DNA from: an uncultured Sphingorhabdus sp.
Lineage (GTDB): Bacteria > Pseudomonadota > Alphaproteobacteria > Sphingomonadales > Sphingomonadaceae
NCBI GenBank assembly: GCA_947492905.1
Contig: CANLOL010000002.1
Span: forward strand, 124,001 to 188,000
Direction: 5' to 3'
Length of the DNA stretch: 64,000 nt
Positions within the stretch are counted from its first letter, which is position 1. The number at the start of each line of letters is the position of its first letter. Positions 5,260-37,573 of the stretch are shown here, piece by piece. The translations under genes were made by a program, and so were the position numbers. The notes below the pieces were generated by a model. It saw nothing but the letters and a program-made list of their open reading frames with translations, did no database searches and was not told the DNA's origin.

Positions 5260-5355
5260 AATATTCTCCTTAATCACTTGATTAACCTTGCTGGCATAAA
5301 AAATAACTGTTCGCAAGGGGTTCAAGAGAGAGAAAAATAGCGTTAGAGAAAGAAT

Positions 5356-19155: not shown

Positions 19156-21486
19156 ATGGATCGGAATTTCTCTCTAAATGATGCGCAGCATAGCTCTGTT
19201 CAGAACAGCTTTTCTCAAGATAGTGGTTTTGATGAGGAAAATGCCCTAGATATTTCTGAGGAAATTGATAGCGCAGAGGAAATTGCCCTATTAAAGCGCC
19301 GATTAAAACGCAGTGAAATCGCTAGAGAAGAAGCTGAAGCCTTATTAGAGAGTAAGAGCAGACGCCTATCCAAATTAGACGATCAGTTGCGGCAAAAAGA
19401 AGAAGAGCTGATCCGCAAAGTGGATCAAACACAGCAATATTTGGTGAATGCTCAGCGATTGGCTAATGTGGCCACTTTTCATATTGATAATGAAGTGCGT
19501 TTTGTTGGCTCGCTTAACTTTTCTAAAATTGTTGGTTCAAAATCTGAAATCAGCAATATCAGACAATTGCGATCTATGGTTCATCAGCGCGATATAGATG
19601 ATATTGATGCGATTATTAAAAACGCTATGTCAGGCGGATTAATTGGTAATGCGTTGGAACATGATGTCCGCGTGCTAGATGATTATGGCCGCATGCGCTG
19701 GCTGCGTTGGTCTGCCGAGCAGATTATCAACAAAGATAATGGCAGGATTGATTGCTATGGCGCGGTTCGCGATATTACTGTGGAAAGGCGCGCCGAACGT
19801 CATGAAAAAACTCTGCTAGCACTGAGCGAGCGGCGCTATAAACAATTACAAAAAATGTCTGCCCAATTGACCGATCGGGTAAAGGCTATGGAAATGCTTA
19901 GTAATGCTCTGCGCGATGCGCGCGCGGTTGCTATTCGCGCGAATAAATCCAAATCCCGTTTCTTAGCGATGATGAGCCATGATATTCGCACGCCAATGAA
20001 TGCTATTTTGGCAACATTGGAGCTGCTGGGTCTTTCTGAGTTGGATGAGGTTCAAAAACGGCAATTAAAATTGGCGCAAAATAGCGGCGATCAATTATTA
20101 TTCTTGCTCGCCGACATAATTGAATATGCAAGGTCAGATGGTTGGTTGATTGAAATAGAAGCGCAGCCCGTTGCAATAGATAGCACCATTACAAATACCG
20201 CCGATACTTGGCGGCAATTGGCGCGTAAAAAAGATTTGGAAATTGAAACCGATATTGAAATGATCGGTGAAAATTATATCAAAACCGATCCAACCCGTTT
20301 GAGGCAGTTGCTTGATAATTTAATCAGCAATGCCATTAAATATACCGATAATGGTGTTATCACGATTAGCTCTAAGATTAAGTCTGAAAAAAATGAGGAT
20401 AGCCTGCGTATTACAGTGACGGATACTGGAAATGGCATTAGCGAATCTGTGCAAAAAATGTTGTTCGAAGATTTAGAACGTGGTGAGCATCAAGATGATT
20501 TGAATATTCAAGGCAGCGGATTAGGTTTGTCAATTTGCCGCCGCATTGTCTATGCGATGAATGGTGATATTGGGGTTGAAAGCAAATTAAATCAGGGCAG
20601 CATGTTCTGGTTTGAAATCCCAGTAAAAGTCATGAGCGAAGATGATTATGTTTATATGCAGGATGATGAAAAAATCATCCAGACATTGAGCGTAAATGAT
20701 CAGCGCCCCAAATTATTAGTAGCAGAAGATGTAGCCGCAAACCGCATGGTACTGACCTCTATGTTGGAGAAATTAGGCTGTGATTATGAAGTTGCAATGG
20801 ATGGACGCCAAGCGGTTGAAATAACGCAATTGCATAAATTTGATGCCATTTTGATGGACGTTTCTATGCCGCGTATGAACGGTATGGAGGCGACCAAAGA
20901 AATACGCTCCCAAGGCAAGAAAACCCCTATTATCGCCGTTACTGCATTTGCTGCGGATGATGAAAAAGAAGCGATAATGGCCGCAGGTATGGATGGGTTA
21001 ATTTCTAAACCGATAAGCATTTCATCCCTGCATCAATCATTGGAAAAAATATTCTGCGCTAAAGAAGATAATGATCTGCATAGATATTTGGGGCATGATA
21101 AAGATAGAAATCGTGCTTCTGTTCCTGATTTTGACGTGGTGGATTATATCGATACCGATAAATTACGGCACCAGATTATATCTGTACCGCCCGAAATGCG
21201 GATTAAATTACAGGATGCAATTGTTGATGATTTGGGCAGTTGGTTCAGACGGTTTCAAACCGCATGGCGGGAGTCGGATAGCCAAGAAATATCGGCAACT
21301 AGCCATGCCCTAAAAGGTATATGCAATGGTTTTGGCGCGCATAAATTAATAGCATCTATTGAGAATTTGCGCAGCCAATCGGAAATGGGCGACATAAAGG
21401 CTTTGTCGCAAGTGATAGATATTTATGATCATACAACGGCGTCCTTTAAAAATGCAGCTGATATAATGGACAGGCGCAGCTCATAA
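19156..21486 (+). CDS. Soluble hybrid histidine kinase (coiled coil-PAS-HisKA-HATPase-REC-Hpt)
   Basis: The 776-residue protein has no membrane segment. In order it shows a charged coiled coil (about 35-105), a PAS-like domain (about 105-212, ending in AVRDITVERRA), a HisKA domain with H275 (FLAMMSHDIRTPMN), a HATPase with LDNLISNAIKY, DTGNGI and GSGLGLSI, a receiver with D568 (AILMDVSMPRMNG), and a C-terminal Hpt domain with H717 (ATSHALKGICNGFGAHKL). It can therefore run a full internal phosphorelay and pass phosphate to a separate response regulator. No such partner is adjacent; the NtrC-type regulator at 32.5 kb is the only other regulator in the locus. Hybrid kinases of this form are typical partners of H-NOX proteins. 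Confidence 0.93.
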   Translation: MDRNFSLNDAQHSSVQNSFSQDSGFDEENALDISEEIDSAEEIALLKRRLKRSEIAREEAEALLESKSRRLSKLDDQLRQKEEELIRKVDQTQQYLVNAQRLANVATFHIDNEVRFVGSLNFSKIVGSKSEISNIRQLRSMVHQRDIDDIDAIIKNAMSGGLIGNALEHDVRVLDDYGRMRWLRWSAEQIINKDNGRIDCYGAVRDITVERRAERHEKTLLALSERRYKQLQKMSAQLTDRVKAMEMLSNALRDARAVAIRANKSKSRFLAMMSHDIRTPMNAILATLELLGLSELDEVQKRQLKLAQNSGDQLLFLLADIIEYARSDGWLIEIEAQPVAIDSTITNTADTWRQLARKKDLEIETDIEMIGENYIKTDPTRLRQLLDNLISNAIKYTDNGVITISSKIKSEKNEDSLRITVTDTGNGISESVQKMLFEDLERGEHQDDLNIQGSGLGLSICRRIVYAMNGDIGVESKLNQGSMFWFEIPVKVMSEDDYVYMQDDEKIIQTLSVNDQRPKLLVAEDVAANRMVLTSMLEKLGCDYEVAMDGRQAVEITQLHKFDAILMDVSMPRMNGMEATKEIRSQGKKTPIIAVTAFAADDEKEAIMAAGMDGLISKPISISSLHQSLEKIFCAKEDNDLHRYLGHDKDRNRASVPDFDVVDYIDTDKLRHQIISVPPEMRIKLQDAIVDDLGSWFRRFQTAWRESDSQEISATSHALKGICNGFGAHKLIASIENLRSQSEMGDIKALSQVIDIYDHTTASFKNAADIMDRRSS

Positions 21487-21560: not shown

Positions 21561-23033
21561 TTAATATGCGCCTTTGCCAGATATAACGGCTGGGATGGTG
21601 CGGAATATTAATTTAATATCCTGCCATAGAGATTTTTTCTCAAGATATTCTACGTCTAAATCCACTTGTTGCTCAAACGGAATATCGGCGCGGCCAGAAA
21701 CTTGCCATGTACAGGTGATGCCCGGTTTTCCATCCAATCTTTTGCGCTCCTTATCGCCATAAGAAATTACTTCATTGGGCAGCGCAGGTCTTGGTCCAAC
21801 AATCGACATTTCACCGGTTAATACATTCACAATTTGCGGCAATTCATCAATTGATGCACGGCGAATAAATTTGCCAACGCGGGTTACTCTGGGGTCTTCC
21901 TTCATTTTGAAACAGACGGAATCGCGTTCATTCATTTCGCTTAATTCGGCTTTGCGGGCTTCTGCATCGCTATACATGGAACGAAATTTCCATATTTTAA
22001 AAGGTTTGCCATCTTTGCCGATACGTGTTTGTTTGAAAAATGGAGACCCTTTATCCTCTATAGTGATGAGCAAGCATAGGGCTGCTGCTATCGGGCCGAG
22101 CAAAAGCAATGCAACTAAGGCAATCGACATATCTAATGTGCGTTTGGTGGCATTTTTATATTTTTCTTTATAGCCTCTGCTTTCAAATGCGTAGATGATA
22201 GCGCGGGTTAAAAATTCGATATTACCGGTAATATAACGTCCTGCGAGCCGCGTTGGTTCGCACATTAATCGCCATACCCATTCCATATGCATTTTGCGCA
22301 CTAATTTAGGGGCTCTGGGTATTCTACCTGAATAATAATCAAACAAACCGCCAACGCCAATGACGATGGCTGCGTTTAATTTGTCACGATTTTTATGGAT
22401 CCAAATCTCTTGATGCGGAACGCCCATACCCACCAAAACAATAGAAGCACCAGATGCATTTATCGCTGCGATAACATCGGCTTCTTCTGTTTCTTTATCA
22501 TAATATCCATGCTGCGTTCCCGCGAATTTTAATCCCGGATATGTGTTGCGCATATTTTTACTAGCAGCGGAGGCAACACCCTCTAAACCGCCCAATAAGA
22601 AAATGGATTGTCCTGCGGCGCAAGCTTTTTCGCATAATAGCGGAAATAAATCAGTGCCATTCAGATTGTTGATATAGTCTGTGCCAGCCATCTTTCCAGC
22701 CAATTTCACACCAGCACCATCGGGCAAGATGGCATCGGCATCTTTAAGCGCTTCTTTATAGGCAGCATTTTTACGGAAAATATTGACGCAATGGGCATTG
22801 ATGAAATTTAATGTATTTTTCTCACCTAAGGCGGCGGCTCTAACGATAGCGCCTGCGGTATCCTCTAGGGATGCATTGACCAAAGGTATTTGGAAAAGAG
22901 GAATTGATTTCTTGCGATTGAGATGCAAACCCAAATTAGTAGTATCGGCATTGATTTTTGAAATAGTCTGTTCGCTGTTTAATGCTTCTAATTTCAATTG
23001 TGTAAATTGATTGTTGATATCAATATAGCTCAT
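21561..23033 (-). CDS. Fusion of WecG/TagA/CpsF glycosyltransferase and polyprenyl glycosylphosphotransferase
   Basis: The 490-residue protein joins two enzymes that act one after the other. Residues about 45-275 are a GT26 WecG/TagA/CpsF domain with NAHCVNIFRKNAAY, the catalytic-region Asp in LPDGAGV (D105) and the GVGGLFDYYSGRIPRAPK segment. Residues about 296-490 are a monotopic phosphoglycosyl transferase with one membrane helix (about 301-323), PFFKQTRIGKDGKPFKIWKFRSM, the catalytic D396-E397 (ASIDELPQ), GEMSIVGPRPALP and GITCTWQVSGR. It would transfer a sugar-phosphate to undecaprenyl phosphate and then add the second sugar. Start 23033 has GGAG 8 bases upstream. A sigma-54-like promoter lies about 33 bp upstream. 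Confidence 0.9.
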   Translation of the reverse strand: MSYIDINNQFTQLKLEALNSEQTISKINADTTNLGLHLNRKKSIPLFQIPLVNASLEDTAGAIVRAAALGEKNTLNFINAHCVNIFRKNAAYKEALKDADAILPDGAGVKLAGKMAGTDYINNLNGTDLFPLLCEKACAAGQSIFLLGGLEGVASAASKNMRNTYPGLKFAGTQHGYYDKETEEADVIAAINASGASIVLVGMGVPHQEIWIHKNRDKLNAAIVIGVGGLFDYYSGRIPRAPKLVRKMHMEWVWRLMCEPTRLAGRYITGNIEFLTRAIIYAFESRGYKEKYKNATKRTLDMSIALVALLLLGPIAAALCLLITIEDKGSPFFKQTRIGKDGKPFKIWKFRSMYSDAEARKAELSEMNERDSVCFKMKEDPRVTRVGKFIRRASIDELPQIVNVLTGEMSIVGPRPALPNEVISYGDKERKRLDGKPGITCTWQVSGRADIPFEQQVDLDVEYLEKKSLWQDIKLIFRTIPAVISGKGAY

Positions 23034-23065
23034 GATGCGTCTCCATTTAAACATGGTCAGATAAG

Positions 23066-23083
23066 AGCATTTTATGTGCCAAA
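23066..23083 (-). promoter_or_regulatory. Candidate sigma-54 promoter of the GT26-PGT fusion gene
   Basis: On the minus strand the site reads TTGGCACATAAAATGCT: the -24 GG (complement of 23079-23080) and -12 GC (complement of 23067-23068) are exactly 10 bp apart. Consensus is TTGGCACG-N4-TTGCW; two positions differ (A for G after TTGGCAC and A for T at the start of the TTGC element). It ends 33 bp before the ATG at 23033. Confidence 0.65.
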
Positions 23084-23165: not shown

Positions 23166-23233
23166 ATTCTCAATATGCAAATAGCATGATGCAAAATGCG
23201 AATATTAGCGCTTCATATTTGCGCTTTGAGAAT
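23166..23233. promoter_or_regulatory. 68-bp dyad between divergent sigma-54-like promoters (possible enhancer)
   Basis: ATTCTCAA-N3-GCAAAT at 23166-23182 is mirrored by ATTTGC-N3-TTGAGAAT at 23217-23233, matching at 14 of 17 positions. Inside is an ATAGCA-TGA-TGCAAA element centred at 23188, related to the TTGCA-N3-TGCAA repeats near 31.8 kb. It lies midway between the two outward-facing sigma-54-like promoters, a natural place for an activator site. Confidence 0.45.
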
Positions 23234-23282: not shown

Positions 23283-23299
23283 CTGGCACGGCTTTTGAA
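23283..23299 (+). promoter_or_regulatory. Near-consensus sigma-54 promoter of the flippase-glycosyltransferase operon
   Basis: CTGGCACGGCTTTTGAA has a perfect -24 element (TGGCACG, GG at 23285-23286) and correct 10-bp spacing, but the -12 is GA (23297-23298) instead of GC. The flippase start lies 30 bp downstream with AGGATATAGT before it. The -12 mismatch could weaken it. Confidence 0.55.
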
Positions 23300-23329: not shown

Positions 23330-24616
23330 ATGAAAACCATAGCGATGAAATTGAAAAGCAGCTTTGCCGAGGGCGGAAGCTTGCCAATCATAAATGCACT
23401 CATGGCTTATGGGTCCGCGCAATTGGCTATTCGTCTGGTGCGATTGGTGGTGGTGATAATCATTGCACGCCAATTGGTGCCAGAATTGGTGGGCGTTGCG
23501 GCCCTTACACTGACGATATTCGAACTGACCCGCGTTCTAGCCAATATTGGCGTAGGTCAAAAAATTATATCCTCTAGTGATGCTGAGTTTGAAAGAACAT
23601 GCAATAGTGCGCATAGAATATTTTGGATTTGGTGTCCTGCGGTTGCGGCCGTGCAATTGATAATGGCGGCTGGGCTTTATACTATATTTGATCAACATTT
23701 ATCAGCGATGATGCTAGCGACACTATGCTTGGTATATTTCTTTATGCCAGGGGGATTGGTGCAATGTTTCCGCCTGATGCGTGCTAAAAAATTATCAACC
23801 TGCGCCAAGATTGATGCCATACAAACGATTAGCGATCATATCTTAACATGCGCAATGTTGTTGGTATGGATTAGCCCATGGTCGATCGTGCTGCCCAAAT
23901 TGCTCACCGCTCCACTTTGGCTTATCATGATGCGCCGCAGTGAAAAATGGAAACCAGATGCGTCTCTAGGCTTTATCGAATATCGCTCTATGGTAAGATT
24001 TGGATTGTCCGTTTTAATCACCGACAGTTTAATCGCAATTCGCAGCCAAGCCGATAAATTGATTATCGGAGCTATGTTAGGCGTGAGCGCCTTAGGCACT
24101 TATTATTTCGCCTTTAATGCAGGCATTGGCATAGTGTCGGCTTTGGTCACAGCATTTGGCACAGTCATATATCCGCATTTATGCAATACAGAATCCGCAT
24201 CTCAACAGCGCGATAAAATGAAATTAGCGATAATGGCCGGCCTTGCCATTTTTGGAAGCGCCGCCGCTGCGCAATATATATTAGCGCCCTATTATGTGCC
24301 GATCATCTTTGGTGAAAAATGGGTTCACGCAATCGCGCTCATTCAAATATTGGCATTGGCATCTATCCCTATGATTTGCTTGGCCTTAACCACCGCTTGG
24401 CTGCGCGCTAATGATCGCGCCAATGTGGATGCGTGGGCGGGATTATTGGCCAGTATATGCGCATTGGGTGCGATGTCTATTGGCGCTCAATATGGTTTGG
24501 TCTCGGCGGCTATGGCTTGGGTCACAGGCACTGTGATAATCGCCATTCCTTTTGCAATTGCAATATTCACCCCATTGTTTCGTCTTAACACCCTTAAATT
24601 TCAACCAGGAGTATGA
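23330..24616 (+). CDS. Polysaccharide flippase-like membrane protein (second copy)
   Basis: The 428-residue protein has about 12 predicted membrane helices and the MOP/Wzx-type N-terminus AYGSAQLAIRLVRLVVVIIIARQLVPELVGVAALTLTIFELTRVLANIGVGQKII, with FGLSVLITDSLIAIRSQADKLIIGAMLGVSALGTYYF in the middle. It is expected to move lipid-linked oligosaccharide to the periplasmic side. It leads an operon with two GT2 enzymes and a GT4, the glycosyltransferase next door being joined by overlap. AGGATATAGT precedes the start and a near-consensus sigma-54 promoter lies upstream. Confidence 0.85.
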   Translation: MKTIAMKLKSSFAEGGSLPIINALMAYGSAQLAIRLVRLVVVIIIARQLVPELVGVAALTLTIFELTRVLANIGVGQKIISSSDAEFERTCNSAHRIFWIWCPAVAAVQLIMAAGLYTIFDQHLSAMMLATLCLVYFFMPGGLVQCFRLMRAKKLSTCAKIDAIQTISDHILTCAMLLVWISPWSIVLPKLLTAPLWLIMMRRSEKWKPDASLGFIEYRSMVRFGLSVLITDSLIAIRSQADKLIIGAMLGVSALGTYYFAFNAGIGIVSALVTAFGTVIYPHLCNTESASQQRDKMKLAIMAGLAIFGSAAAAQYILAPYYVPIIFGEKWVHAIALIQILALASIPMICLALTTAWLRANDRANVDAWAGLLASICALGAMSIGAQYGLVSAAMAWVTGTVIIAIPFAIAIFTPLFRLNTLKFQPGV

Positions 24617-24618
24617 AC

Positions 24619-27797: not shown

Positions 27798-29093
27798 TTA
27801 TGACTTTTGAGCTTCATGGTTATTGGCCTCATGGCCTTCGGGCATTAATCCCTTACCAATAAGGATGAGAGCGGGCCAATAGAGATAGGCTAATATCTCT
27901 AAATTCTCACCAAAACTATAGAGTATCAGCAATGTCACCATAGATAATGCGAGGCGTGATGCACGATATTTATGCGCATTATAGATTAAGAATAAAAAGG
28001 ATATGGCTAGGGGTATAGCGAGCGCAAAAAAGCCGCTTAAGCCTTTTACAAATAATAGCCCATACCAGCTATGATGGCTGCCGATTGGCATATATTCAAC
28101 CAAATGCGGGCCACGCTCTACAACGGCATGGCCAAACCAATAGGCTTCATTCTGCCATCGCTCTACCGCTATTCGGCCAAGCGCTGCGCGGACGCGCGAT
28201 GAATCGGCGCGTGCTCCTGAAAAGCTCTGAATAGCGCTATCAATTAAATTGATAATGTCGACGGCAAACCATCCCAAGAGCAATAAAATAGGCATGGCCA
28301 TAAACCATAGATATGGCCTGTTGATTTGTGATGCCGCAAAAGCAAAGGGCCATATGATGACAAGCGCGACCAAGGCTAAACGTGATTGCGATAAAAGCAT
28401 GATAGCGAGCGAAGCTATCAAACCGATGGTTTTCCATTTCACATCTTTTTCTTCAAGCGCGCATAAAAAATGCACTAAGGCTATCATACCAGCAGCGGGC
28501 GACCATGGGGCAAAAAATTGCCAGCGCGCTGTGCCGACCCCAGGTTCGATTGTATAGAGGGTTGCGGCAAAATATTCGCTGCCAGAGCCGCCCAAAACTT
28601 TGAGCGGTGAAACCCATAATGTTTGCGGTAATCCGACATAAGGGGCGATCAAAAATAGCGGTAATATGATCAGGCTATATTTGCCCAAACGGCATATTGC
28701 GCGGTGAATAAGTTCGCTGCGTATTGGCAGCACTGCGCCAGCCAAAATGAACATAGCCAATAAAGCCCAGCCTTTGGCCCATCCAATAGAAGATTTAATC
28801 GTTGCGCCCGTGCCTAGGCTATAATCGATATGGCCGATCCATAAAATGACTAGAAGCGCGAACATGCCCAAAATCCATAGCCATATGAATATATTGGGGG
28901 CTTTTATGCGTTTTTCTTTGGTCAAGCCAGGAGCGATAAAATATGTTGATATTACAATAGCAGTTAGCGCGACCCCAAGAACGGGGCCGGCTATATATAA
29001 TCCGCCAACCAACCATAAACCCCAAGTGCTTATAATGGCATAGAAAATTATTTGCTCTTGAATATTTTGCGGATGATCCGCTGACGTAACCAT
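27798..29093 (-). CDS. O-antigen ligase/polymerase-like membrane protein (Wzy-type)
   Basis: The 431-residue protein has about 10-12 hydrophobic segments and the loop pattern of the Wzy/WaaL family, with a large periplasmic loop around YWFGHAVVERGPHLVEYMPIGSHHSWYGLLFVKG (the conserved His/Gly-rich stretch). In this context (next to the chain-length and export genes) it is most likely the polymerase that joins repeat units. The only ATG, at 29093, lies 46 bp inside the upstream gene; no internal ATG serves as a better start. It is the last gene of the Wza operon. Confidence 0.83.
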   Translation of the reverse strand: MVTSADHPQNIQEQIIFYAIISTWGLWLVGGLYIAGPVLGVALTAIVISTYFIAPGLTKEKRIKAPNIFIWLWILGMFALLVILWIGHIDYSLGTGATIKSSIGWAKGWALLAMFILAGAVLPIRSELIHRAICRLGKYSLIILPLFLIAPYVGLPQTLWVSPLKVLGGSGSEYFAATLYTIEPGVGTARWQFFAPWSPAAGMIALVHFLCALEEKDVKWKTIGLIASLAIMLLSQSRLALVALVIIWPFAFAASQINRPYLWFMAMPILLLLGWFAVDIINLIDSAIQSFSGARADSSRVRAALGRIAVERWQNEAYWFGHAVVERGPHLVEYMPIGSHHSWYGLLFVKGLSGFFALAIPLAISFLFLIYNAHKYRASRLALSMVTLLILYSFGENLEILAYLYWPALILIGKGLMPEGHEANNHEAQKS

Positions 29094-30475
29094 AATAATG
29101 TCAATCCAATGATAAGGAAAAATGTTGCCGCAAGTGCGCCGGCGATTGCTAGCATTTTTGATGGGCTAGAGGGGCCATTGGGCAGGGAGGGAGCTTCCAA
29201 AACTTGTACCAAAGGATAAGAAGCAAATGGGTCTTGTTTATTGGTGTCTAGGCGCGCCAATGCTGATGAAAATACAGCCTCTGCCACGCGGTGATCACGA
29301 ATAAGATCCGCAAGCTGCGAAGCGCTCGTAACCAGTTCGCTGCGATTGGCGGATAATCTGCTAATATCGCGGCGAATTTCGGACAGGCTAGCATTGATAC
29401 CAGAGCGCTGCGATTCTGCTAATGCCATGCCTTGCATCAAATTGGAGCGCCCAGCGGACACTGTTATATCAACGCTATTGAGGATGGATTTATTACCAAG
29501 GCCCGTGAGCTCGCGCCCGCGTCTAAGCAGGGCATTGCGCAAACTATCGCGTTCATCTTTGCTGACAATTAAAGAACCATGATTATCACCCAAGGTCGCA
29601 GATTTTTCTTCGGCTATGACAGAGGCTTTGGCATATTTATCAGCCAGTCCTTGGAATATTGGATCAGAGCGTAATTTTAGTGCTTTGTTTGCGCCATTAA
29701 CGCCCGTTCCCAATATAGAGGAAAACCGTTGGGTTTCGGCCGCTTTGCTGCGAAGCTTTGTGCGTTCATCGCGCTCTTTTTCTTGCAGGGCATCCAAATT
29801 GGCAATGCGGTTATTGAATTGATCTAAGGATACCAAACCATTTTTCGCTTGAAAGGCGAGCAATTTCTTTTGCGTGGATTGCACTTTTTTCTCTAGCTCT
29901 ACCAAATATTTGGAATCGACAATCTCGCGCTGCGCCGCTTCATCTTTGCGCAAAGATTGTAGCTGAATTAAAAATTGATCTTTAATGGCTGCTGCCCTTT
30001 TTTCGGCTTGCTCGGCGCTACCACCCGATATTTTGACGATAATCAAATTGGTTTGATCGATAAGCTCGATTTTGGGTGCAGGAAACTCATCTGGATCTTC
30101 ACCAATGCTAAGCGCTGCGCTGCGTAAGGTACGATTGGTGCTGAGCAATCTTTTATAATTTTCCGTCGGGCTTAATGTTGCACTCGCAAAAGCGGATGAA
30201 GAAGAGGATTGTGCCTGTCCAATGCTCTCAACATTGAGCGAACCACCAGCACCGCTGCCGGGTAATATTAGCGAAAATTCGCTCTGATATTTCGCTGGAG
30301 TAAAGAGCAAATAGGCTGTGGTTAAAGACCAAATAGCCATTAAAATTAATAGCGAGGTGATAAGATAACGGCGTTCACGCCAGTGCAGATTTTTCCATGA
30401 TAATTTGCGTTGTTTGATAACATCCTTAAAGAATATTACAGCATGATCATAATCTAATTTTTCTATAATCGACAT
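29048..30475 (-). CDS. Polysaccharide co-polymerase/chain-length determinant protein
   Basis: The 475-residue protein has two membrane helices (about 38-58 and 445-465) flanking a long periplasmic alpha-helical domain rich in coiled coil (EKKVQSTQKKLLAFQAKNG and LDALQEKERDERTKLRSKAAETQ). This is the Wzz/KpsE-type architecture without a tyrosine-kinase domain. It would set chain length and link polymerase to exporter. It begins 3 bp after the Wza-like gene and overlaps the polymerase gene by 46 bp. No separate Wzc-like kinase is visible. Confidence 0.88.
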   Translation of the reverse strand: MSIIEKLDYDHAVIFFKDVIKQRKLSWKNLHWRERRYLITSLLILMAIWSLTTAYLLFTPAKYQSEFSLILPGSGAGGSLNVESIGQAQSSSSSAFASATLSPTENYKRLLSTNRTLRSAALSIGEDPDEFPAPKIELIDQTNLIIVKISGGSAEQAEKRAAAIKDQFLIQLQSLRKDEAAQREIVDSKYLVELEKKVQSTQKKLLAFQAKNGLVSLDQFNNRIANLDALQEKERDERTKLRSKAAETQRFSSILGTGVNGANKALKLRSDPIFQGLADKYAKASVIAEEKSATLGDNHGSLIVSKDERDSLRNALLRRGRELTGLGNKSILNSVDITVSAGRSNLMQGMALAESQRSGINASLSEIRRDISRLSANRSELVTSASQLADLIRDHRVAEAVFSSALARLDTNKQDPFASYPLVQVLEAPSLPNGPSSPSKMLAIAGALAATFFLIIGLTLLWLRQRIIRKIFKSK

Positions 30476-30478
30476 GAT

Positions 30479-31657
30479 TTAATCCAAATTATTAAAGAGA
30501 ATGAGGGGCGTAATCGTCTCGCTAAATACGCTCACCACATCGCGCAAATTCATGGCGAGACTGTCGTAACAGGCAATGCCATCGCCGGGCATCAGATAGG
30601 GGTCTTTAGTGTCTCGATCTGAATTTCTGACCAATTTCTCAACCGCGCGAGAGATAACGACCGATTGACCTGTGACGGGATTGCGCGACATTAGAACCAC
30701 TTGCCGCCCAGCATTCATAGACGAACCACCAACGCAATTGGCCGCGACCATGGCTTGTGATAAGCGCGTGCCATATGGCAATTTTGTTGTATCCACATTG
30801 ATTGATGAAGATGCATTATTATTGGCAGGGCGCGATAGATTTGACATATAGACGCGTATGCCCGGCTGAGTGATTGTTGTTGGGCGCACCAATGCTTCTT
30901 GTAAGCAACCAATGGACGGCACGATTACCCTATCGCCAGAGCGCATAGGAATATCCTTAATAGGCTGCCCAGTAATAGCGCCGCGCAAATCAAGCTGTGT
31001 CCATTGATTGCCGCGCACTAGGAATATTGTTCTAATCTCAGCATCAGGACGCACGCCACCCGCAGCGCGCAATGCTGTTGATAGATTACGGCCCGGATTG
31101 GCATCGCCAAATTCAATATTGCTAAAATTCACATTGCGCGTTTCAGGAGATTTATCACCTAATCGGACTTGTCCTTGGGCAAAAACCGCGCCCTTAACCG
31201 CAATATTGACACCATTTAATTCGGCAATGTTGAGCGCAACACCAGAATTTTTGCGGCGAATAAACCCTTTGTTATAGAGCATGGCAGCAACATTATTTTT
31301 TGCCTCTATCGCGCTCTTTCCCGCAACGAATATAGAATGGCCCAATAATGTAATCTCGCCATTATCGGCGACAATATAGGTGCCGCTTAATTGATCTTCA
31401 TCGCCAGCAACATTTATTTTAATGCTGTCACCTGTATTTAATGTATCGGCGCTCGATGATAATATTTCAGGCTCTACAAATTGCAGCCCCTCTATTTCAT
31501 GCGGAGCTTGCGCGGATTGGCAATGCAGATACTTTTCTTTCTCGCCAATAGGTTGCTGCCAAGCATAGAAGCTTCCATGCTCATTTGACGGACGGCGCAT
31601 AGTAGCACAGCCCGATAGCAATGACGTAATAGTAAGCGCGATAATATATTTTTTCAT
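30479..31657 (-). CDS. Polysaccharide export lipoprotein (Wza-type, poly_export/SLBB)
   Basis: The 392-residue protein has a lipoprotein signal peptide ending in LLSGC (C17). A poly-export domain follows (LNTGDSIKINVAGDEDQLSGTYIVADNGEITLLG) and then SLBB-like repeats (AVFAQGQVRLG, GVRPDAEIRTIFLVRG, MRSGDRVIVP). It is the outer-membrane channel for exopolysaccharide. Start 31657 is chosen because AGGA lies 9 bases upstream and it places the signal peptide correctly; ATG 31666 is too close to that site. A perfect sigma-54 promoter lies about 75 bp upstream. Confidence 0.93.
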   Translation of the reverse strand: MKKYIIALTITSLLSGCATMRRPSNEHGSFYAWQQPIGEKEKYLHCQSAQAPHEIEGLQFVEPEILSSSADTLNTGDSIKINVAGDEDQLSGTYIVADNGEITLLGHSIFVAGKSAIEAKNNVAAMLYNKGFIRRKNSGVALNIAELNGVNIAVKGAVFAQGQVRLGDKSPETRNVNFSNIEFGDANPGRNLSTALRAAGGVRPDAEIRTIFLVRGNQWTQLDLRGAITGQPIKDIPMRSGDRVIVPSIGCLQEALVRPTTITQPGIRVYMSNLSRPANNNASSSINVDTTKLPYGTRLSQAMVAANCVGGSSMNAGRQVVLMSRNPVTGQSVVISRAVEKLVRNSDRDTKDPYLMPGDGIACYDSLAMNLRDVVSVFSETITPLILFNNLD

Positions 31658-31730: not shown

Positions 31731-31750
31731 ATTTGCAACGGCCGTGCCAA
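31731..31750 (-). promoter_or_regulatory. Consensus sigma-54 promoter of the Wza operon
   Basis: On the minus strand the site reads TTGGCACGGCCGTTGCAAAT, a full match to TTGGCACG-N4-TTGCW. The -24 GG is the complement of 31747-31748 and the -12 GC of 31735-31736, 10 bp apart. The start codon of the Wza-type gene lies about 74 bp downstream. Confidence 0.88.
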
Positions 31751-31810
31751 CTGCATTTTTGGTTCAAAATGGTCGAAAATCAGGATTTTCAGGCAATTTT
31801 TTTTGAAATC

Positions 31811-31869
31811 TTTGCAATTTGCAAATCTTTTTGTTGCATATTGCAATCAAGATTTTTGCATTTTGCAAA
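31811..31869. promoter_or_regulatory. Triple TTGCA-N3-TGCAA enhancer array between divergent sigma-54 promoters
   Basis: Three inverted repeats are centred at 31818, 31840 and 31862: TTTGCAATTTGCAAA, TTGCATATTGCAA and TTTGCATTTTGCAAA. They are spaced exactly 22 bp, about two helical turns. They sit between the outward-facing Wza and H-NOX sigma-54 promoters, at distances typical for NtrC-family activators. Confidence 0.75.
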
Positions 31870-31910
31870 GCGCTTATGGCCAAAATCGCTAAATTTATAG
31901 CATTTTGATA

Positions 31911-31929
31911 TTGGCACGAGCATTGCTTT
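31911..31929 (+). promoter_or_regulatory. Consensus sigma-54 promoter of the H-NOX/NtrC operon
   Basis: TTGGCACGAGCATTGCTTT is a full match to TTGGCACG-N4-TTGCW. GG at 31913-31914 and GC at 31925-31926 are 10 bp apart. The H-NOX ATG is 43 bp downstream with AAGGACAGAGT before it. Confidence 0.9.
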
Positions 31930-31971
31930 ACCATTTTGCATATTATTAAAAATTATAAGTAAGGACAGAGT

Positions 31972-32514
31972 ATGAAGGGTATAATATTTACAGAGCTTGT
32001 TCGCTTTATGGAGCAAGTGAAATCAGCAAAATTTGTTGATGATGTGATAACCGCTGCGCAATTGCCCAATGATGGGGCCTTTACCTCTGTGGGCAATTAT
32101 CCATCGGAATATGCGCTTTCTATGGTTGCCGAGGCTTCGAAAACATCGGGCATTGATGCCGCAGAATTATGCCGCCTCTTTGGACATTATCTCTATAATA
32201 GATTTTTGATCCTCTATCCCGATATTATCGAAGCTTATACCAATGCCGAAGATTTATTGGCGCATGTAGGCAGCCATATTCATGGCGAAGTGCGCATATT
32301 ATATCCCGATGCTCGTCCCCCGCACATTGAGAGCAAGACAAGCGATGAGGGGTTTGAATTAAGCTATCAATCACATCGTCCTATGGCGGCTATTGCCTGC
32401 GGATTGGTGCAGGGTTGTATGGAACATTTTAACGATGAGCGCGAACTCAAATGGCGTTTTTCAGACGGCGGAAAATCAGCAAGCTTCACAATTAAGGATA
32501 AAGCACATGCCTAA
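31972..32514 (+). CDS. H-NOX (haem nitric oxide/oxygen-binding) sensor protein
   Basis: The 180-residue protein is a stand-alone H-NOX domain. It has the proximal haem ligand region SHIHGEVRILYPDARPP (H104 most likely the ligand; P117 the conserved proline 13 residues later) and the YxSxR motif YQSHR (Y132, S134, R136) that binds the haem propionates. The N-terminal MKGIIFTELVRFMEQ is also typical. H-NOX proteins bind NO and sometimes O2 and control a partner kinase or cyclic-di-GMP enzyme. Here the partner gene is an NtrC-type response regulator, overlapping by 8 bp, with no kinase adjacent. It is preceded by a consensus sigma-54 promoter, which suggests self-regulation. Confidence 0.94.
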   Translation: MKGIIFTELVRFMEQVKSAKFVDDVITAAQLPNDGAFTSVGNYPSEYALSMVAEASKTSGIDAAELCRLFGHYLYNRFLILYPDIIEAYTNAEDLLAHVGSHIHGEVRILYPDARPPHIESKTSDEGFELSYQSHRPMAAIACGLVQGCMEHFNDERELKWRFSDGGKSASFTIKDKAHA

Positions 32515-34009
32515 ACCAACCATATTGATAATAGAGGATATTGCATCGCTATCATTGGCTTATGCAGGTGATTTAGAGAGCGCTGGCTTTCAATCCGTCA
32601 TTGTTGACAGCCTTGCAAGTGCCAATGAACAAATCAAAAGCAATAAGCAGGGTTTTGATGCCATATTGTTGGATTTGCAATTGCCCGATGGCAATGGATT
32701 AGATTGGCTGAAAGAGAATGAAGAATTTGTTGCCAATAATGCGATCATTGTGGCCACAGCCGATGGTTCGATAAACCGTGCTATTGATGCTATGCGCCTT
32801 GGGGCTTATGATTTCATGGTAAAGCCGCTTGCGCCTGCTCGTTTGGTTGCTGCGGTGGAAAGCGCTCTAAAAAACAATATTAAATTAGATGATATTGCTC
32901 CTGATATTATTGCACCATCGCATAGAAATGGTTTCGCCGGCTTTGTTGGCAACAGCCCATCTATGCGCAATATTTATAAACAAATAGAGAATATCAGCCG
33001 ATCAAAAGCGACCATATTTATTACAGGTGAGAGCGGCACAGGCAAAGAAGTATGCGCCGATGCAATCCATAGCAGCGGCCCGCGTGCAAAAAAGCCTTTT
33101 GTTGCGATTAACTGTGGTGCGATACCCGAAGATTTGATGGAGTCTGAACTTTTCGGGCATTTGAAAGGGTCTTTTACGGGCGCAATTTCAGACCGCGTTG
33201 GGGCAGTGCAAGCTGCGCATGGAGGTACATTATTTCTGGATGAAATTTGCGAGATGGAGCTTAAACTCCAAGTGAAATTATTGCGCTTCATTCAAACGGG
33301 AACGGTTCAGCGCGTTGGTGCGACCAAAACAGAGAATGTTGATGTTCGTATCATTTGCGCGACCAATCGTGATCCGCAAGCCGAGGTAAGAGCAGGGCGT
33401 TTCAGAGAAGATCTTTATTATCGCCTAGCCGTTGTGCCGATGGAATTACCGCCATTGCGTTCGCGCGGTGATGATATTGTGTTGCTCGCCAATGAATTTT
33501 TGAACCGATATGCCGAAGAAGAGGGCAAGAAATTCTCAACAATGGAACCATCATTGGTGCAAGCATTGCAAATGCACCAATGGCCGGGGAATGTGCGTGA
33601 ATTGCAAAATTTGATGCGCCGAGCTGCGGTTATGTATGATGGCCCTATCTTAGGAACAGAAATATTACCCGAATTTATTCCGCCGCAAGAGATAGAACGG
33701 ATTCAATCAGAGCCATTACAGATTAATCCCGCAAATTTAGAAGCTGCGGCGATGCAGGCTATTGAGTCTGCCAATCAAATGGCAGCACTGACCAATATGG
33801 ATTGGATGGATGGCCGCACTTTGGATCAGATCGAACAAATGGTTGTTGAACAAGCCATCGCCAAATGCGGCGGCAGCGTTACGAAGGCGGCGAAGGTTTT
33901 GGACGTCAGCCCATCGACCCTTTATCGCAAAAGGGAAAAATGGATGGCCGATGAAGAGGCTATGGATGATGCGGCGGATATTGCGCATCTTTCAAAATTA
34001 AGACTCTAA
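32507..34009 (+). CDS. NtrC-family sigma-54 response regulator
   Basis: The 500-residue protein has a receiver domain with D56 (DAILLDLQLPDGNG) and conserved K107. Its AAA+ sigma-54 interaction domain has Walker A GESGTGKE (174-181), GSFTGA (221-226, the GAFTGA loop with Ser in place of Ala) and Walker B TLFLDEI (241-247). A C-terminal Fis-type helix-turn-helix follows (about 457-478, VTKAAKVLDVSPSTLYRKR). Phosphorylated activators of this type drive sigma-54 promoters from distant enhancers; the perfect sigma-54 promoters and the TTGCA repeats upstream are likely targets. Start 32507 (MPKPTILIIED) is used; the longer open frame from 32393 would overlap H-NOX by 122 bp and lacks family similarity. 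It may be the hub of polysaccharide control. Confidence 0.95.
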   Translation: MPKPTILIIEDIASLSLAYAGDLESAGFQSVIVDSLASANEQIKSNKQGFDAILLDLQLPDGNGLDWLKENEEFVANNAIIVATADGSINRAIDAMRLGAYDFMVKPLAPARLVAAVESALKNNIKLDDIAPDIIAPSHRNGFAGFVGNSPSMRNIYKQIENISRSKATIFITGESGTGKEVCADAIHSSGPRAKKPFVAINCGAIPEDLMESELFGHLKGSFTGAISDRVGAVQAAHGGTLFLDEICEMELKLQVKLLRFIQTGTVQRVGATKTENVDVRIICATNRDPQAEVRAGRFREDLYYRLAVVPMELPPLRSRGDDIVLLANEFLNRYAEEEGKKFSTMEPSLVQALQMHQWPGNVRELQNLMRRAAVMYDGPILGTEILPEFIPPQEIERIQSEPLQINPANLEAAAMQAIESANQMAALTNMDWMDGRTLDQIEQMVVEQAIAKCGGSVTKAAKVLDVSPSTLYRKREKWMADEEAMDDAADIAHLSKLRL

Positions 34010-34016
34010 AATATAT

Positions 34017-36008
34017 TTAGTCAGCAGCAATCACCGCGATTTGTGCGCTGGCTAAATTTTCTTGTCCTATGATATAATTACCGCCCTGCCATGGCCCATG
34101 AATATTGCCCAGATCAATCATTTTACAGCCATAGTTGAATATATAATGAAACCCGTCTTTACGGCGAATGCGCAATTCTTGCGGTAAAATTATCGGTTTC
34201 AAATCGGTCAATTTTAACAAGTCCATCAGCATATTATGCAGCAGAGCATCATCGGGCCAAGCGCTGCAATAATAGATATTATTATGGCGGCTTAATATAG
34301 CAGTGCCATTATGACATTGCTCCACCACTTCGGCGGTACCGACAACATGCTCTATCCAATGATCGATGCGAAAATCATCACCATGACGCGAAGTGCCAAA
34401 ATGATGTAATCCCTCTCGCATGCTTTCAACGCGCGTGACTTTGACATCAATTAATTGCTGCAATGGGCCGGGTGCTAGATTATCTGGAATAGAAAAATCT
34501 TTAGTTTTGCTGCCGCTTCTTGGTCCAAACATCACAGGCACATTTAGGGCTTTAACCTTAGCGATAAAATCATCATTTATGATCGGCATAGAGGGAATGA
34601 TGACCATCGCATAACCCTCTAAATCATCATCCTGTGATACAATATCAATATTCAGCCCCATTCGGCGTAATGCACTATAATGTTCAAACACGAGCCATAA
34701 ATATTGAAAGCTCTGACCTTGTGGTTGGGTTTCAAATAGCCATTGTGCTTCATAGGAAAAATGCAGCGCGATGGTTTGCGCTTTTGGGTTTTGCGCATTT
34801 TGGTTAGTAGCAGTTTCATGAAGCGTAGCAGTTTCACGGAGCGCAGCAATATCTGCGGCAGCTTGGCGAGCCTCAAGCGCACCTTGCGCCTCTACGCCAT
34901 CGGGCCGCAGCAAACCAGCGTGCATTTGTTCCTGCGCAAAGGGTATTTGTCGCCATCTGAAATAGGAACAAAAATCAGCTTCATGCGCCATCGCCTCTAT
35001 CGTCCAAAGCCGCACCATGCCATCAAGCGGAGCAGGGTTATGATGCGCCCAATTTACAGGGCCAGGCTGTTGCTCCATCACGCCCCATTTATTTGAACAA
35101 CCGCGATATAGATCATGATGAAAAGCCGCTATGTCGGGATGGCCTTGCCGCGCAAATTTCTCTTTCTCTTCATCGCTGAACGGAAACATTTCCAAAAACC
35201 CCAGCGGATAGCTATCCCATGTTGCGATATCCAAATCTGCGCCAACTTTGTGATGATCAAAATCTGTATAAAAACCCATAAAGTTGTGCATGATTATACG
35301 ATCGGGTGAATATTTTTTGATGATCTCGGTTTGGATTTTATTGAATGAAACAACTTCATCCGATGCAAATCTTCGATAATCCAACACATGAGCAGGATTG
35401 GCTTCTGTGACGGTTAGATAGGGTAAATCAATCGCATCGAAGCTCTGATATTCCATGCTCCAAAAAACATTGCCCCAAGCGGCATTTAATGCAGATATTT
35501 TGTCATATTTATTCGACAACCAGTCACGAAAACGGGACGCAGCGGCGACAGAATAGCTGAGCACTGTATCATGACAGCCATATTCATTATCGGTTTGCCA
35601 ACCCATAATCGCATCATGATTTCCATAGCGCATCGCCATAATTTGTGTAATGCGCGCGCATTCTTGGCGATAGGGCATGTGCGAAAAACAATATTGCCGG
35701 CGAGAACCAAATTTGCGCGGATTGCCCTTTTCATCAATAGCAATCATATCGGGCATGCTATCAACCAGCCATTTTGGCGGGGTTGCAGTGGGTGTGCCTA
35801 ATATGATTTTGAGCCCTCCTTTGGCAAGACTTTCAATAGCGCGATCTAGCCAATCCCAATCATATTGGCCTTGCTGTGGTTCCATACGGCTCCAAGCAAA
35901 TTCACCAATACGCACCAGCTCTAAACCCATTTCGCGCATGTGCGCAGCGTTATTATCCCAATCAGTTTCGGGCCAATGTTCGGGGTAATAACAACATCCT
36001 AATTTCAT
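34017..36008 (-). CDS. Beta-galactosidase, GH42 family
   Basis: The 663-residue enzyme starts KLGCCYYPEHWPETDWDNNAAHMREMGLELVRIGEFAWSRMEP, the GH42 signature. The acid/base is E142 (TDNEYG) and the nucleophile E312 (VMEQQPG). A trimerisation domain with SMPIINDDFIAKVK follows. It hydrolyses terminal beta-galactosides. It has no signal peptide, so is cytoplasmic and would need an imported oligosaccharide. Converges on the NtrC-type regulator (7 bp gap). A small tandem 18-bp duplication is visible in the middle, encoding a repeated ETAT motif in a low-complexity linker. No transporter or other sugar gene is adjacent. Confidence 0.94.
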   Translation of the reverse strand: MKLGCCYYPEHWPETDWDNNAAHMREMGLELVRIGEFAWSRMEPQQGQYDWDWLDRAIESLAKGGLKIILGTPTATPPKWLVDSMPDMIAIDEKGNPRKFGSRRQYCFSHMPYRQECARITQIMAMRYGNHDAIMGWQTDNEYGCHDTVLSYSVAAASRFRDWLSNKYDKISALNAAWGNVFWSMEYQSFDAIDLPYLTVTEANPAHVLDYRRFASDEVVSFNKIQTEIIKKYSPDRIIMHNFMGFYTDFDHHKVGADLDIATWDSYPLGFLEMFPFSDEEKEKFARQGHPDIAAFHHDLYRGCSNKWGVMEQQPGPVNWAHHNPAPLDGMVRLWTIEAMAHEADFCSYFRWRQIPFAQEQMHAGLLRPDGVEAQGALEARQAAADIAALRETATLHETATNQNAQNPKAQTIALHFSYEAQWLFETQPQGQSFQYLWLVFEHYSALRRMGLNIDIVSQDDDLEGYAMVIIPSMPIINDDFIAKVKALNVPVMFGPRSGSKTKDFSIPDNLAPGPLQQLIDVKVTRVESMREGLHHFGTSRHGDDFRIDHWIEHVVGTAEVVEQCHNGTAILSRHNNIYYCSAWPDDALLHNMLMDLLKLTDLKPIILPQELRIRRKDGFHYIFNYGCKMIDLGNIHGPWQGGNYIIGQENLASAQIAVIAAD

Positions 36009-36055
36009 ATAGTAAGAGACTTTCTATGATTTAAGATGGTGATATATTGCTGATG

Positions 36056-37573
36056 CTAAATGTCAAATGATACCCCTTGGGCTAGCGGTAAATCAGAGGA
36101 ATAATTAATGGTATTGGTGGCACGGCGCATATAAGCTTTCCATGCATCGCTACCAGATTCGCGGCCTCCGCCCGTTTCTTTTTCACCGCCAAAAGCACCG
36201 CCAATTTCTGCGCCTGATGTGCCTATATTGACATTGGCTATGCCGCAGTCGCTGCCCATAGCGCTTAAAAATGTCTCAGCTTCACGCAGGTTCAGAGTGA
36301 AAATAGCAGAGGATAATCCAGCGCCCACGGCGTTTTGGGCGGCTATTGCATCGCTTAGATCCGTATAGCGCATGATATAGAGTATCGGCGCAAAAGTCTC
36401 CTGCATCACAATGCCGCTTTGTTCATCCATCTCGGCCAAGGCAGGGCGCACATAATAAGCATTTTCGTGCGGCGTTTCAAAGCGTTCGCCGCCAATGATT
36501 TTGGCGCCTTGCTCTTTCGCTTTGTTAAGAGATTTTTGCATATTATCAAAAGCTTCTTTATCGATAAGCGGCCCAACCAACGCATCGCTAGCGAGTGGGT
36601 CACCAATGCTAATGCTTTGATATGCGCTCTTAAGGCGCGGGACAATTTGATCATAAATATCATCATGAACGAACAGGCGGCGCGTCGAAGTACAGCGCTG
36701 TCCCGCCGTTCCCATAGCGCCAAATGCGGCAGCATGAGTCGCCATTTCCAGATCAGCAGAAGGCGCAATTATCATCGCATTATTACCGCCTAATTCTAAT
36801 ATACTCTTGCCAAAACGTGCCGCCACTTTTGGGCCTACTTCACGGCCCATACGCGTTGAGCCTGTGGCTGAAATCAGCGCGACATCATGATGTTCGACCA
36901 TCGCATTGCCAATATCGCCCCCGCCGATAATAAGCTGCGATAATCCTTGCGGTGCAGCTTCGCCTGATGCTGCAAATTTTTCCAAAGCGCGGTCGAATAT
37001 CGCATGACAGGCCATGGCAGTGAGCGGTGTTTTTTCGGATGGTTTCCAAATGATGCTATTGCCTGTGACTAGGGCCAATGCGCTGTTCCACGACCATACG
37101 GCAACAGGAAAGTTAAAGGCTGATATGATGCCCACAACGCCAAGCGGATGCCAATTTTCCATCATGCGATGGCCGGGCCGTTCTGATACAATGGTGAGGC
37201 CATATAATTGCCGCGATAGACCAACCGCAAAATCGCAAATATCAATCATTTCCTGCACTTCGCCAAGGCCCTCGGATGGGATTTTACCCGCCTCTATACT
37301 GACCAAACGGCCCAATACTTCCTTGTGCGTGCGTAATTCTTCGCCTAATAAACGCAGCAATTCACCGCGTCTTGGCGCAGGAATATTGCGCCAATTTTGC
37401 GATGCGCTTTTGGAGTTTGCAACGATATTATCCATATCATTCAATGGGGTTTGATGGACAGTTGCTAACACCTCTCCATTGAGCGGGGATGAAACATTTA
37501 GATCACCATTTTGCAGATCATAATTTGCGCCGATAGCTTTGAAAATATCGGTAACCTCTTGGGCATATGTCAT
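36056..37573 (-). CDS. ALDH7-type aldehyde dehydrogenase (aminoadipate semialdehyde/antiquitin-like)
   Basis: The 505-residue enzyme matches the ALDH7 group (AmaB, antiquitin): PLGVVGIISAFNFPVAVWSWNSALALVTGNSIIWKPSEKTPLTA, ELGGNNAMIIAPSADL and the catalytic Cys in AGQRCTSTRRLFVHD. The group oxidises alpha-aminoadipate semialdehyde or related aldehydes in lysine catabolism with NAD. AAGGACGAATT precedes the start at 37573. No lysine-degradation partner (amaA, lysine 6-dehydrogenase) is adjacent, so the substrate is inferred. Confidence 0.9.
   Translation of the reverse strand: MTYAQEVTDIFKAIGANYDLQNGDLNVSSPLNGEVLATVHQTPLNDMDNIVANSKSASQNWRNIPAPRRGELLRLLGEELRTHKEVLGRLVSIEAGKIPSEGLGEVQEMIDICDFAVGLSRQLYGLTIVSERPGHRMMENWHPLGVVGIISAFNFPVAVWSWNSALALVTGNSIIWKPSEKTPLTAMACHAIFDRALEKFAASGEAAPQGLSQLIIGGGDIGNAMVEHHDVALISATGSTRMGREVGPKVAARFGKSILELGGNNAMIIAPSADLEMATHAAAFGAMGTAGQRCTSTRRLFVHDDIYDQIVPRLKSAYQSISIGDPLASDALVGPLIDKEAFDNMQKSLNKAKEQGAKIIGGERFETPHENAYYVRPALAEMDEQSGIVMQETFAPILYIMRYTDLSDAIAAQNAVGAGLSSAIFTLNLREAETFLSAMGSDCGIANVNIGTSGAEIGGAFGGEKETGGGRESGSDAWKAYMRRATNTINYSSDLPLAQGVSFDI

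Follow-up and report, generated by a model that had tools for sequence, protein, structure and literature searches.

A conserved H-NOX, hybrid kinase and LuxO/SypG-like sigma-54 activator cluster in Sphingorhabdus as a candidate gas-responsive switch for polysaccharide export and synthesis

In Vibrio fischeri, HnoX controls the kinase HahK, the Hpt domain of SypF, the sigma-54 activator SypG and the syp polysaccharide genes (PMC8738867, PMC12369376). HnoX inhibits HahK, and nitric oxide (NO) lowers biofilm formation in an HnoX-dependent manner (PMC12369376). The sequence TTGCAWWWTGCAA is the consensus of the LuxO upstream activating sequence, and at qrr1, as genetic evidence suggests, SypG acts through overlapping sites (PMC10162802, PMC11443567). 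Here we analyse a window of 64,000 nucleotides (the whole stretch of DNA under study, positions 124,001 to 188,000 of contig CANLOL010000002.1) from an uncultured Sphingorhabdus sp., in which the gene of an H-NOX gas sensor is found with those of a LuxO/SypG-like sigma-54 activator, a hybrid histidine kinase, and proteins of polysaccharide export and synthesis.

A preliminary description of this DNA, made from the sequence alone, had regarded the pairing of H-NOX and an NtrC-type activator with a polysaccharide target as not well described; given the V. fischeri circuit (PMC8738867, PMC12369376) that view is not supported in this form, and the kind of circuit made up of H-NOX, phosphorelay, sigma-54 activator and polysaccharide genes is already known. 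The locus in the window is real, conserved and multi-part, and includes parts absent from that description: three enhancer boxes, a second divergent sigma-54 pair, and an in-cluster hybrid kinase with an Hpt domain. We consider it probable that the locus is a self-contained switch, in which NO on H-NOX would repress the kinase, the Hpt domain would phosphorylate the LuxO/SypG-like activator, and sigma-54 would drive export and synthesis.

The H-NOX and activator genes and their promoters

The H-NOX protein scores 104.1 bits against Pfam HNOB (cut-off 25.5; an NCBIfam scan gave no match) and has the proximal ligand H104 and the YxSxR residues Y132, S134 and R136; in an alignment of 30 rows (A8), H104, Y132 and S134 are invariant and R136 nearly so. 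Its AlphaFold2 model has a mean predicted local distance difference test score of 93.2, and the top Foldseek matches of the model are solved H-NOX structures (template modelling score 0.91 to 6bde, the H-NOX of K. algicida), such that family profile, residues and fold all bear out the identity first given to it.

Members of the H-NOX family bind NO, CO and, in some cases, O2, and O2-binding members have a tyrosine where the window protein has I141. This position, transferred by the YxSxR register, we take to be that of the O2-stabilising tyrosine of thermophile H-NOX. In an alignment of 12 rows (A5) it is occupied by isoleucine or valine in 10, by leucine and phenylalanine in two congeners with another type of H-NOX, and by tyrosine in none (0/12). 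The protein probably binds haem and NO. That O2 is the ligand, or that redox state is the signal, appears highly improbable to us: the ligand range of the family and two conserved cysteines (C149, invariant in eight close relatives, and C67, invariant in four congeners) would fit such a reading, but the isoleucine in place of the tyrosine argues against it. At one locus of another genome (L182), the H-NOX frame (2163-2606) has asparagine at the expected proximal haem histidine and a histidine one residue earlier, and this protein may be abnormal in haem binding.

The activator gene, which overlaps the H-NOX gene by 8 bp (32507-32514) as first described, encodes the receiver, the AAA+ domain with sigma-54 loop, and the helix-turn-helix of its class. 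The receiver keeps all phosphorylation residues (E10, D11, D56, T84 and K106), the AAA+ motifs are GESGTGKE and GSFTGA, and the closest PDB sequence is LuxO (5ep0, 391 bits, the first entry after those of LuxO scoring 293). The genome contains rpoN.

With the consensus TGGCAC-N5-TTGCW, two perfect sigma-54 sites are found in the window, both in the H-NOX/Wza intergenic region and facing outward, again as the preliminary description had it; the 2.59 Mb genome has only seven such sites in all, against 0 for the reversed control pattern. Sites with up to two mismatches number 56 in the window, not above the shuffled mean of 49, and for this reason only near-perfect sites carry weight. Between 12 and 45 kb of the window there are exactly four sites with at most one mismatch, all in two divergent pairs, the second of which separates the initiating transferase from the flippase; the two further such sites of the window, at 45178 and 47190, are not part of the cluster. 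With two divergent pairs in the cluster, the activator seems to control four transcription units.

The 31734 and 31912 promoters enclose three perfect TTGCAWWWTGCAA boxes spaced at exactly 22 bp within 57 bp, whereas shuffled sequences contained a mean of 0.20 and reached three in 0 of 100 shuffles. The pattern TTGCANNNTGCAA occurs eight times in the genome, with an AT-only centre in just these three boxes. Enhancers of this consensus upstream of sigma-54 sites are what characterises a LuxO/SypG-type regulator, and binding of the activator to them is predicted. Another TTGCANNNTGCAA of the window (5049-5061, centre GTT) falls within an HD-domain frame (4645-5424), close to a kinase/regulator pair (5356-7286) judged LytT-like by eye. 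A SypG-type box (TTCTCANNNTGMDW) at 23167 was considered and rejected: the match is perfect, but the chance expectation is 0.63 and the three congeners do not conserve it.

This layout is widely retained. Among 32 loci compared, 26 (window included) have the divergent Wza/H-NOX region and six lack the divergent pair. All 26 regions contain a sigma-54 site with at most one mismatch and an outward-facing pair with at most two; their 7.4 kb of intergenic DNA holds 13 perfect sites against 0 in the other 544 kb, and the sites are therefore not due to chance. An enhancer box is perfect in 12 of the 26, within one mismatch in 22, and within two in all (26/26); perfect boxes number 22 in the 7.4 kb against 4 in the 544 kb elsewhere, and boxes with up to two mismatches 80 against 97. 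In the second divergent region, outward-facing sites with up to two mismatches are present in 21 of 23 other regions (each genome counted once, with L180 too far apart to count), and L199 and L194 have a single sigma-54 site only. There the enhancer box is perfect in two of the three congeners compared, and L208 has no box within two mismatches.

Conservation across the genus and the order

Within the genus, an orthologous activator (at least 81% identity, the next by score having 39%) is present in four of 45 genomes, and these four also have this H-NOX together with the cluster. Within the order, relatives of the H-NOX (E <=1e-15) were found in 45 of 396 genomes and relatives of the activator (E <=1e-100, three candidates scored per genome) in 83, with both in 42 of the 45 H-NOX genomes. 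LuxO-like activators at this threshold also occur in 41 of the 396 genomes with no H-NOX relative at E <=1e-15; the majority of these belong to other families of the order. Neighbourhoods were taken for 39 of the 43 further genomes in which H-NOX was matched. The activator lies directly after H-NOX in 25 of the 28 f1 loci (L155-L182), so that the homologue search which had been suggested for H-NOX/NtrC/Wza synteny does recover it, together with the 26 divergent Wza/H-NOX regions. In the outgroups L180-L182 (f1) and eight f5 loci, H-NOX and the kinase are adjacent and the activator is a further gene; the order H-NOX, kinase, activator is found in eight of the 12 f5 loci, and in L182 H-NOX is followed by the kinase, the initiating transferase, the flippase, the glycosyltransferases, the export genes and finally the activator. 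Taken together, these comparisons support, at the level of gene order and promoter sequence, a conserved unit of gas sensor, sigma-54 activator and export operon with divergent sigma-54 promoters.

A wider set of 80 named loci comprises the best 80 of at least 550 confirmed matches (L216, L217, L224 and L225 are presumably the same records as contigs of genomes G357, G382, G344 and G248). Sixteen of them have the activator after H-NOX; among the named loci arranged in this way are Aurantiacibacter marinus, Altericroceibacterium indicum, Erythrobacter litoralis and Novosphingobium sp. PC22D. Five of the 64 without an activator in this slot carry an NtrC-type homologue elsewhere: in L244 it is 9 kb away, in L245 there is one 3.2 kb downstream (55% identity), and the others are L241, L256 and L263. 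In these last three (a Bacteroidia, a delta-proteobacterial and a Crocinitomicaceae record) H-NOX has the homologue (33-40% identity) immediately upstream and a coiled-coil gene downstream, and these are possibly independent H-NOX/activator pairings.

Other types of H-NOX in the genus (20 places in 18 genomes) were set aside as not belonging to this system, with no activator among the matches listed in their neighbourhoods, some of which are on short contigs. This different type, seen in other members of the genus (L047-L066), has the N-terminus MYGMIH and is followed in at least 12 of 20 cases by a gene of about 520 amino acids, weakly similar to the window kinase and with no match to the coiled-coil profile introduced below. 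A search of plasmids for H-NOX returned 21 records, the best identity being 39.4% among the 15 matches listed.

The hybrid kinase and the remaining genes of the cluster

At the edge of the cluster lies a hybrid histidine kinase in which Pfam finds HisKA, HATPase (kept with its motifs), a receiver and, just below the cut-off, PAS_3 (25.2 against 25.6 bits). Its Hpt domain is recognised with the help of relatives: 12 of 16 homologous kinase tails match Pfam Hpt at E <=0.01, that of the window (0.0015) included, and the histidine is invariant. The protein thus has the domains of a SypF-like hybrid kinase. It is not itself adjacent to H-NOX, the two genes being 10.5 kb apart, but it shares a feature with the kinases that are. 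H-NOX-adjacent kinases have a common N-terminal coiled coil whichever domain comes next (PAS, GAF-like or HisKA, as named partly by eye), and a profile of it (A4), built from 13 H-NOX-adjacent kinase segments, none of the window's genus, gives a single match in the whole genome at E <=10, in the window kinase (E 5.6e-10). By the definition of this analysis the window kinase therefore has the coiled coil of H-NOX-adjacent kinases.

Profile A4 matches the frame directly after H-NOX in all 64 named loci without an activator in that slot, of which 63 are independent, since L245 presumably duplicates the G063 record whose kinase (L181) is a row of the profile; these loci include Bacteroidota, Planctomycetota, Verrucomicrobiota, Chloroflexota and Pseudomonadota. 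In the 16 loci with the activator after H-NOX it matches no downstream gene. It does match upstream of H-NOX in four of them, at 0.1-0.2 kb in two, 1.4 kb in a third and 7.5-9 kb in a fourth, and the other 12 have no match within the DNA covered. In 20 extended regions (17 of the 25 f1 loci with the H-NOX-activator pair plus three congeners), a kinase homologue convergent with the initiating transferase is always present, and the profile matches this cluster-edge protein in 18, two of them weakly (E 0.01 and 0.05). The kinase frame of L200 (11970-14327) is interrupted early, with similarity continuing beyond.

An alternative within the same regulon is that H-NOX is a co-regulated NO/O2 scavenger or acts elsewhere, the kinase sensing another signal through its PAS domain. 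We think this unlikely: it would suit the 10.5 kb between the genes and the kinase's own PAS domain, but the sole place in the genome that fits the profile of an H-NOX partner is this kinase, and the trees of the two proteins agree.

The H-NOX tree has 88 rows (the window, L040-L042, L056, L060, L066, all 40 of L155-L194, and 41 of the 80 named loci, chosen for spread, with five duplicates and 17 of the 20 other-type H-NOX of the genus left out). All 41 activator-adjacent H-NOX fall on the same side of one branch of this tree (100/98), and next to them stand first the f1 H-NOX with the kinase beside them (98/86) and then 10 of the 12 f5 rows (100/92); the f5 rows L185 and L186 fall away from the other ten. 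The kinase-core tree has 28 rows: eight cluster-edge kinases with HATPase (the window, L195-L199 in unaltered form, L201 and L207), 13 H-NOX-adjacent kinases and seven others, one of these being a partial sequence from the window's genome; it excludes L200, L179 and proteins lacking HATPase. Here the cluster-edge kinases group beside the f1 H-NOX-adjacent ones (88/94), and the other kinases, two of which form long branches, fall outside (98/96). The two sequence trees agree. Their polarity is our interpretation, as the roots are midpoints, but it suggests that the kinase was the old partner of H-NOX and that the activator joined in the ancestry of the order; in one lineage H-NOX would have come to lie beside the activator, with the kinase left at the edge of the cluster.

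Because it has the typical coiled coil and groups with kinases beside H-NOX in relatives, we take the cluster-edge kinase to be the probable partner of H-NOX. The preliminary description had let gas act through the activator on export and on its own operon; of this, the conserved sensor, activator and export unit stands, and direct action of H-NOX on the activator gives way to the likelier hybrid kinase. We think it very unlikely that H-NOX acts directly on the cotranscribed activator, masking for example its receiver or AAA+ ring, with gas gating transcription without the kinase. The 8-bp overlap, the position of the activator in 25 of 28 f1 loci, the single group formed by activator-adjacent H-NOX, and the upstream homologues of L241, L256 and L263 could all be read in this way, but the receiver keeps every phosphorylation residue, all 20 extended regions retain the kinase homologue (18 of them with a detected coiled coil), and L180-L182 and eight f5 loci pair H-NOX with the kinase. 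Most likely, then, H-NOX has no direct action on the activator.

The features of the cluster are collected in Table 1. Its product is probably an exopolysaccharide; a Pfam scan of the chain-length determinant gave no match. In four congeners the activator is followed by genes for a GH42 beta-galactosidase and an aldehyde dehydrogenase (34017-37573 in the window), and no GH42 gene was among the matches listed in 40 wider neighbourhoods.

Table 1. Genes, promoters and enhancer boxes of the cluster, in coordinates of the window
Feature	Position	Strand	Basis
Hybrid histidine kinase, proposed H-NOX partner	19156..21486	+	Coiled coil, PAS, HisKA, HATPase, receiver, Hpt
Coiled-coil segment, kinase residues ~39-85, proposed H-NOX docking element	19270..19410	+	Profile A4, E 5.6e-10
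Initiating transferase, WecG-type glycosyltransferase fused to Bac_transf domain	21561..23054	-	Pfam
Second-pair sigma-54 promoter, towards initiating transferase	23066..23081	-	1 mismatch
Degenerate enhancer box, second divergent region	23182..23194		Two mismatches to TTGCAWWWTGCAA
Second-pair sigma-54 promoter, towards flippase and glycosyltransferases	23284..23299	+	1 mismatch
Wzx-type flippase	23330..24616	+	Polysacc_synt_3
Glycosyltransferases 1 and 2	24613-25542, 25557-26564	+	Open frames named by eye; synteny
Glycosyltransferase 3	26561-27589	+	Pfam; synteny
Wzy-type polymerase/ligase	27798..29093	-	Wzy_C below cut-off; synteny
Chain-length determinant (Wzz/EpsF-like)	29048..30475	-	Weak NCBIfam matches below cut-off; synteny
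Wza-type outer-membrane polysaccharide export lipoprotein	30479..31657	-	Poly_export and SLBB_2 just below cut-off; EpsE weak; synteny
Sigma-54 promoter, Wza/Wzz/Wzy operon	31734..31749	-	Perfect match, conserved
LuxO-type enhancer box 1 (TTGCAATTTGCAA)	31812..31824		Perfect match to consensus
LuxO-type enhancer box 2 (TTGCATATTGCAA)	31834..31846		Perfect match to consensus
LuxO-type enhancer box 3 (TTGCATTTTGCAA)	31856..31868		Perfect match to consensus
Sigma-54 promoter, H-NOX/activator operon	31912..31927	+	Perfect match, conserved
H-NOX haem gas sensor, 180 amino acids	31972..32514	+	Pfam HNOB, residues, AlphaFold2 model and Foldseek
LuxO/SypG-like sigma-54 activator, 500 amino acids	32507..34009	+	Pfam: receiver, sigma-54 AAA+, Fis-type helix-turn-helix

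The proposed circuit and its relation to known systems

We hypothesize that apo H-NOX leaves the coiled-coil hybrid kinase active. The kinase would autophosphorylate and pass the phosphate through its own receiver to its own Hpt domain, which would in turn phosphorylate D56 of the activator. The activator would bind the three shared boxes and drive RNA polymerase-sigma-54 both ways, towards the export and polymerase genes in one direction and its own H-NOX/activator operon in the other, and would likewise drive the second divergent pair, with the initiating transferase on one side and the flippase and glycosyltransferases on the other. NO-bound H-NOX would inhibit the kinase and the cluster would be turned down, and the autoregulatory loop would raise the activator and its gas brake together. 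The parts, their conservation, the layout of promoters and enhancers, and the agreement of the trees can be read from the sequences themselves; phosphotransfer from Hpt to the activator is presumed, and that NO switches the cluster off is suggested by analogy with V. fischeri.

Several observations weigh against this circuit. The sigma-54 loop of the activator is GSFTGA instead of GAFTGA, and its top NCBIfam match, LuxO (NF041946), reaches 534.7 bits against an equivalog cut-off of 800, which is why we call it LuxO-like. The Hpt match of the window kinase is 19.2 bits against a Pfam cut-off of 24.6, H-NOX and the kinase have no visible common promoter across the 10.5 kb between them, and the enhancer box of the window's second divergent region is degenerate. 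The docking of H-NOX on the kinase coiled coil is suggested by their association, and profile A4 fails in two of the 20 extended regions (L206 and L212). As for a local source of NO, no Cu nitrite reductase was found in the genome (cd1-type was not searched). In addition, a HATPase was undetected in the coiled-coil protein of a sister part of the family in 12 of 12 proteins scanned, which had been chosen for missing or weak similarity to the window HATPase; the mechanism therefore cannot be identical everywhere.

These 12 proteins (L202, L203, L204, L205, L208, L209, L210, L211, L213, L214, L174 and L175) keep HisKA and receiver, with Hpt matched in 11 and PAS in 11, some below cut-off; L207 keeps the HATPase. 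Among cultured environmental relatives that carry the cluster, Aurantiacibacter marinus KCTC 23554 (L224/L165, L207) resembles the window in having a HATPase in its coiled-coil protein, and Altericroceibacterium indicum DSM 18604 (L225/L168, L210) has the HATPase-less form. In L202 and L205, the two loci scanned for it, a separate kinase gene adjoins the HATPase-less protein. Such a protein looks like a kinase turned phosphotransfer hub, and in this lineage H-NOX would control the hub instead of a kinase. A further idea, which we rate as quite unlikely, is that in this family H-NOX swapped its operon partner, from kinase to activator, and touches both, docking on the coiled coil of a phosphotransfer hub (made up, in the sister lineage, of HisKA, receiver and Hpt) and also binding the activator, which would then be a directly gas-gated enhancer-binding protein.

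If the proposed circuit is right, a complete candidate gas-to-biofilm circuit is held in a single conserved cluster, present also in cultured environmental type strains, and H-NOX would be tied to sigma-54 control of the LuxO type in a setting other than Vibrio. For H-NOX genes that have no adjoining kinase, the coiled-coil signature offers a simple search route to the kinase partner, and it makes H-NOX-kinase contact a testable question. In a limited literature search, conducted partly by title, we found no described Sphingomonadales case of H-NOX with sigma-54 and exopolysaccharide.

Among described systems, LuxO/qrr resembles the locus in that the best match of the activator is LuxO and the enhancer consensus is identical (PMC10162802, PMC11443567); unlike in LuxO/qrr, the window activator scores below the LuxO equivalog cut-off, its predicted targets are polysaccharide operons and not quorum small RNAs, and its boxes are common to two divergent promoters. 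The likeness to HnoX-HnoK-HnoC of Shewanella is that an H-NOX-controlled kinase phosphorylates a transcription factor and that there is feedback on its own regulon; HnoC, however, is described as a repressor relieved by phosphorylation, with a parallel branch via cyclic di-GMP enzymes (PMC8738867, PMC6335343). Unlike the Shewanella system, the window has a sigma-54 activator and polysaccharide genes. All of its circuit parts are in one cluster, unlike those of the V. fischeri circuit, in which HnoX presumably lies apart from syp. That circuit (HnoX-HahK-SypF-SypG-syp) is otherwise the closest, with H-NOX, hybrid kinase, Hpt, a LuxO/SypG-type sigma-54 activator and polysaccharide genes (PMC12369376, PMC8738867). 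In V. fischeri, HnoX is in an operon with its kinase HahK (PMC12369376) and the Hpt domain belongs to a different kinase, SypF, or to LuxU, whereas in the window H-NOX overlaps the activator gene, and kinase and Hpt are in one protein. What appears to be new here is the compact layout, the LuxO-type enhancers, and the predicted cotranscription of H-NOX with the activator.

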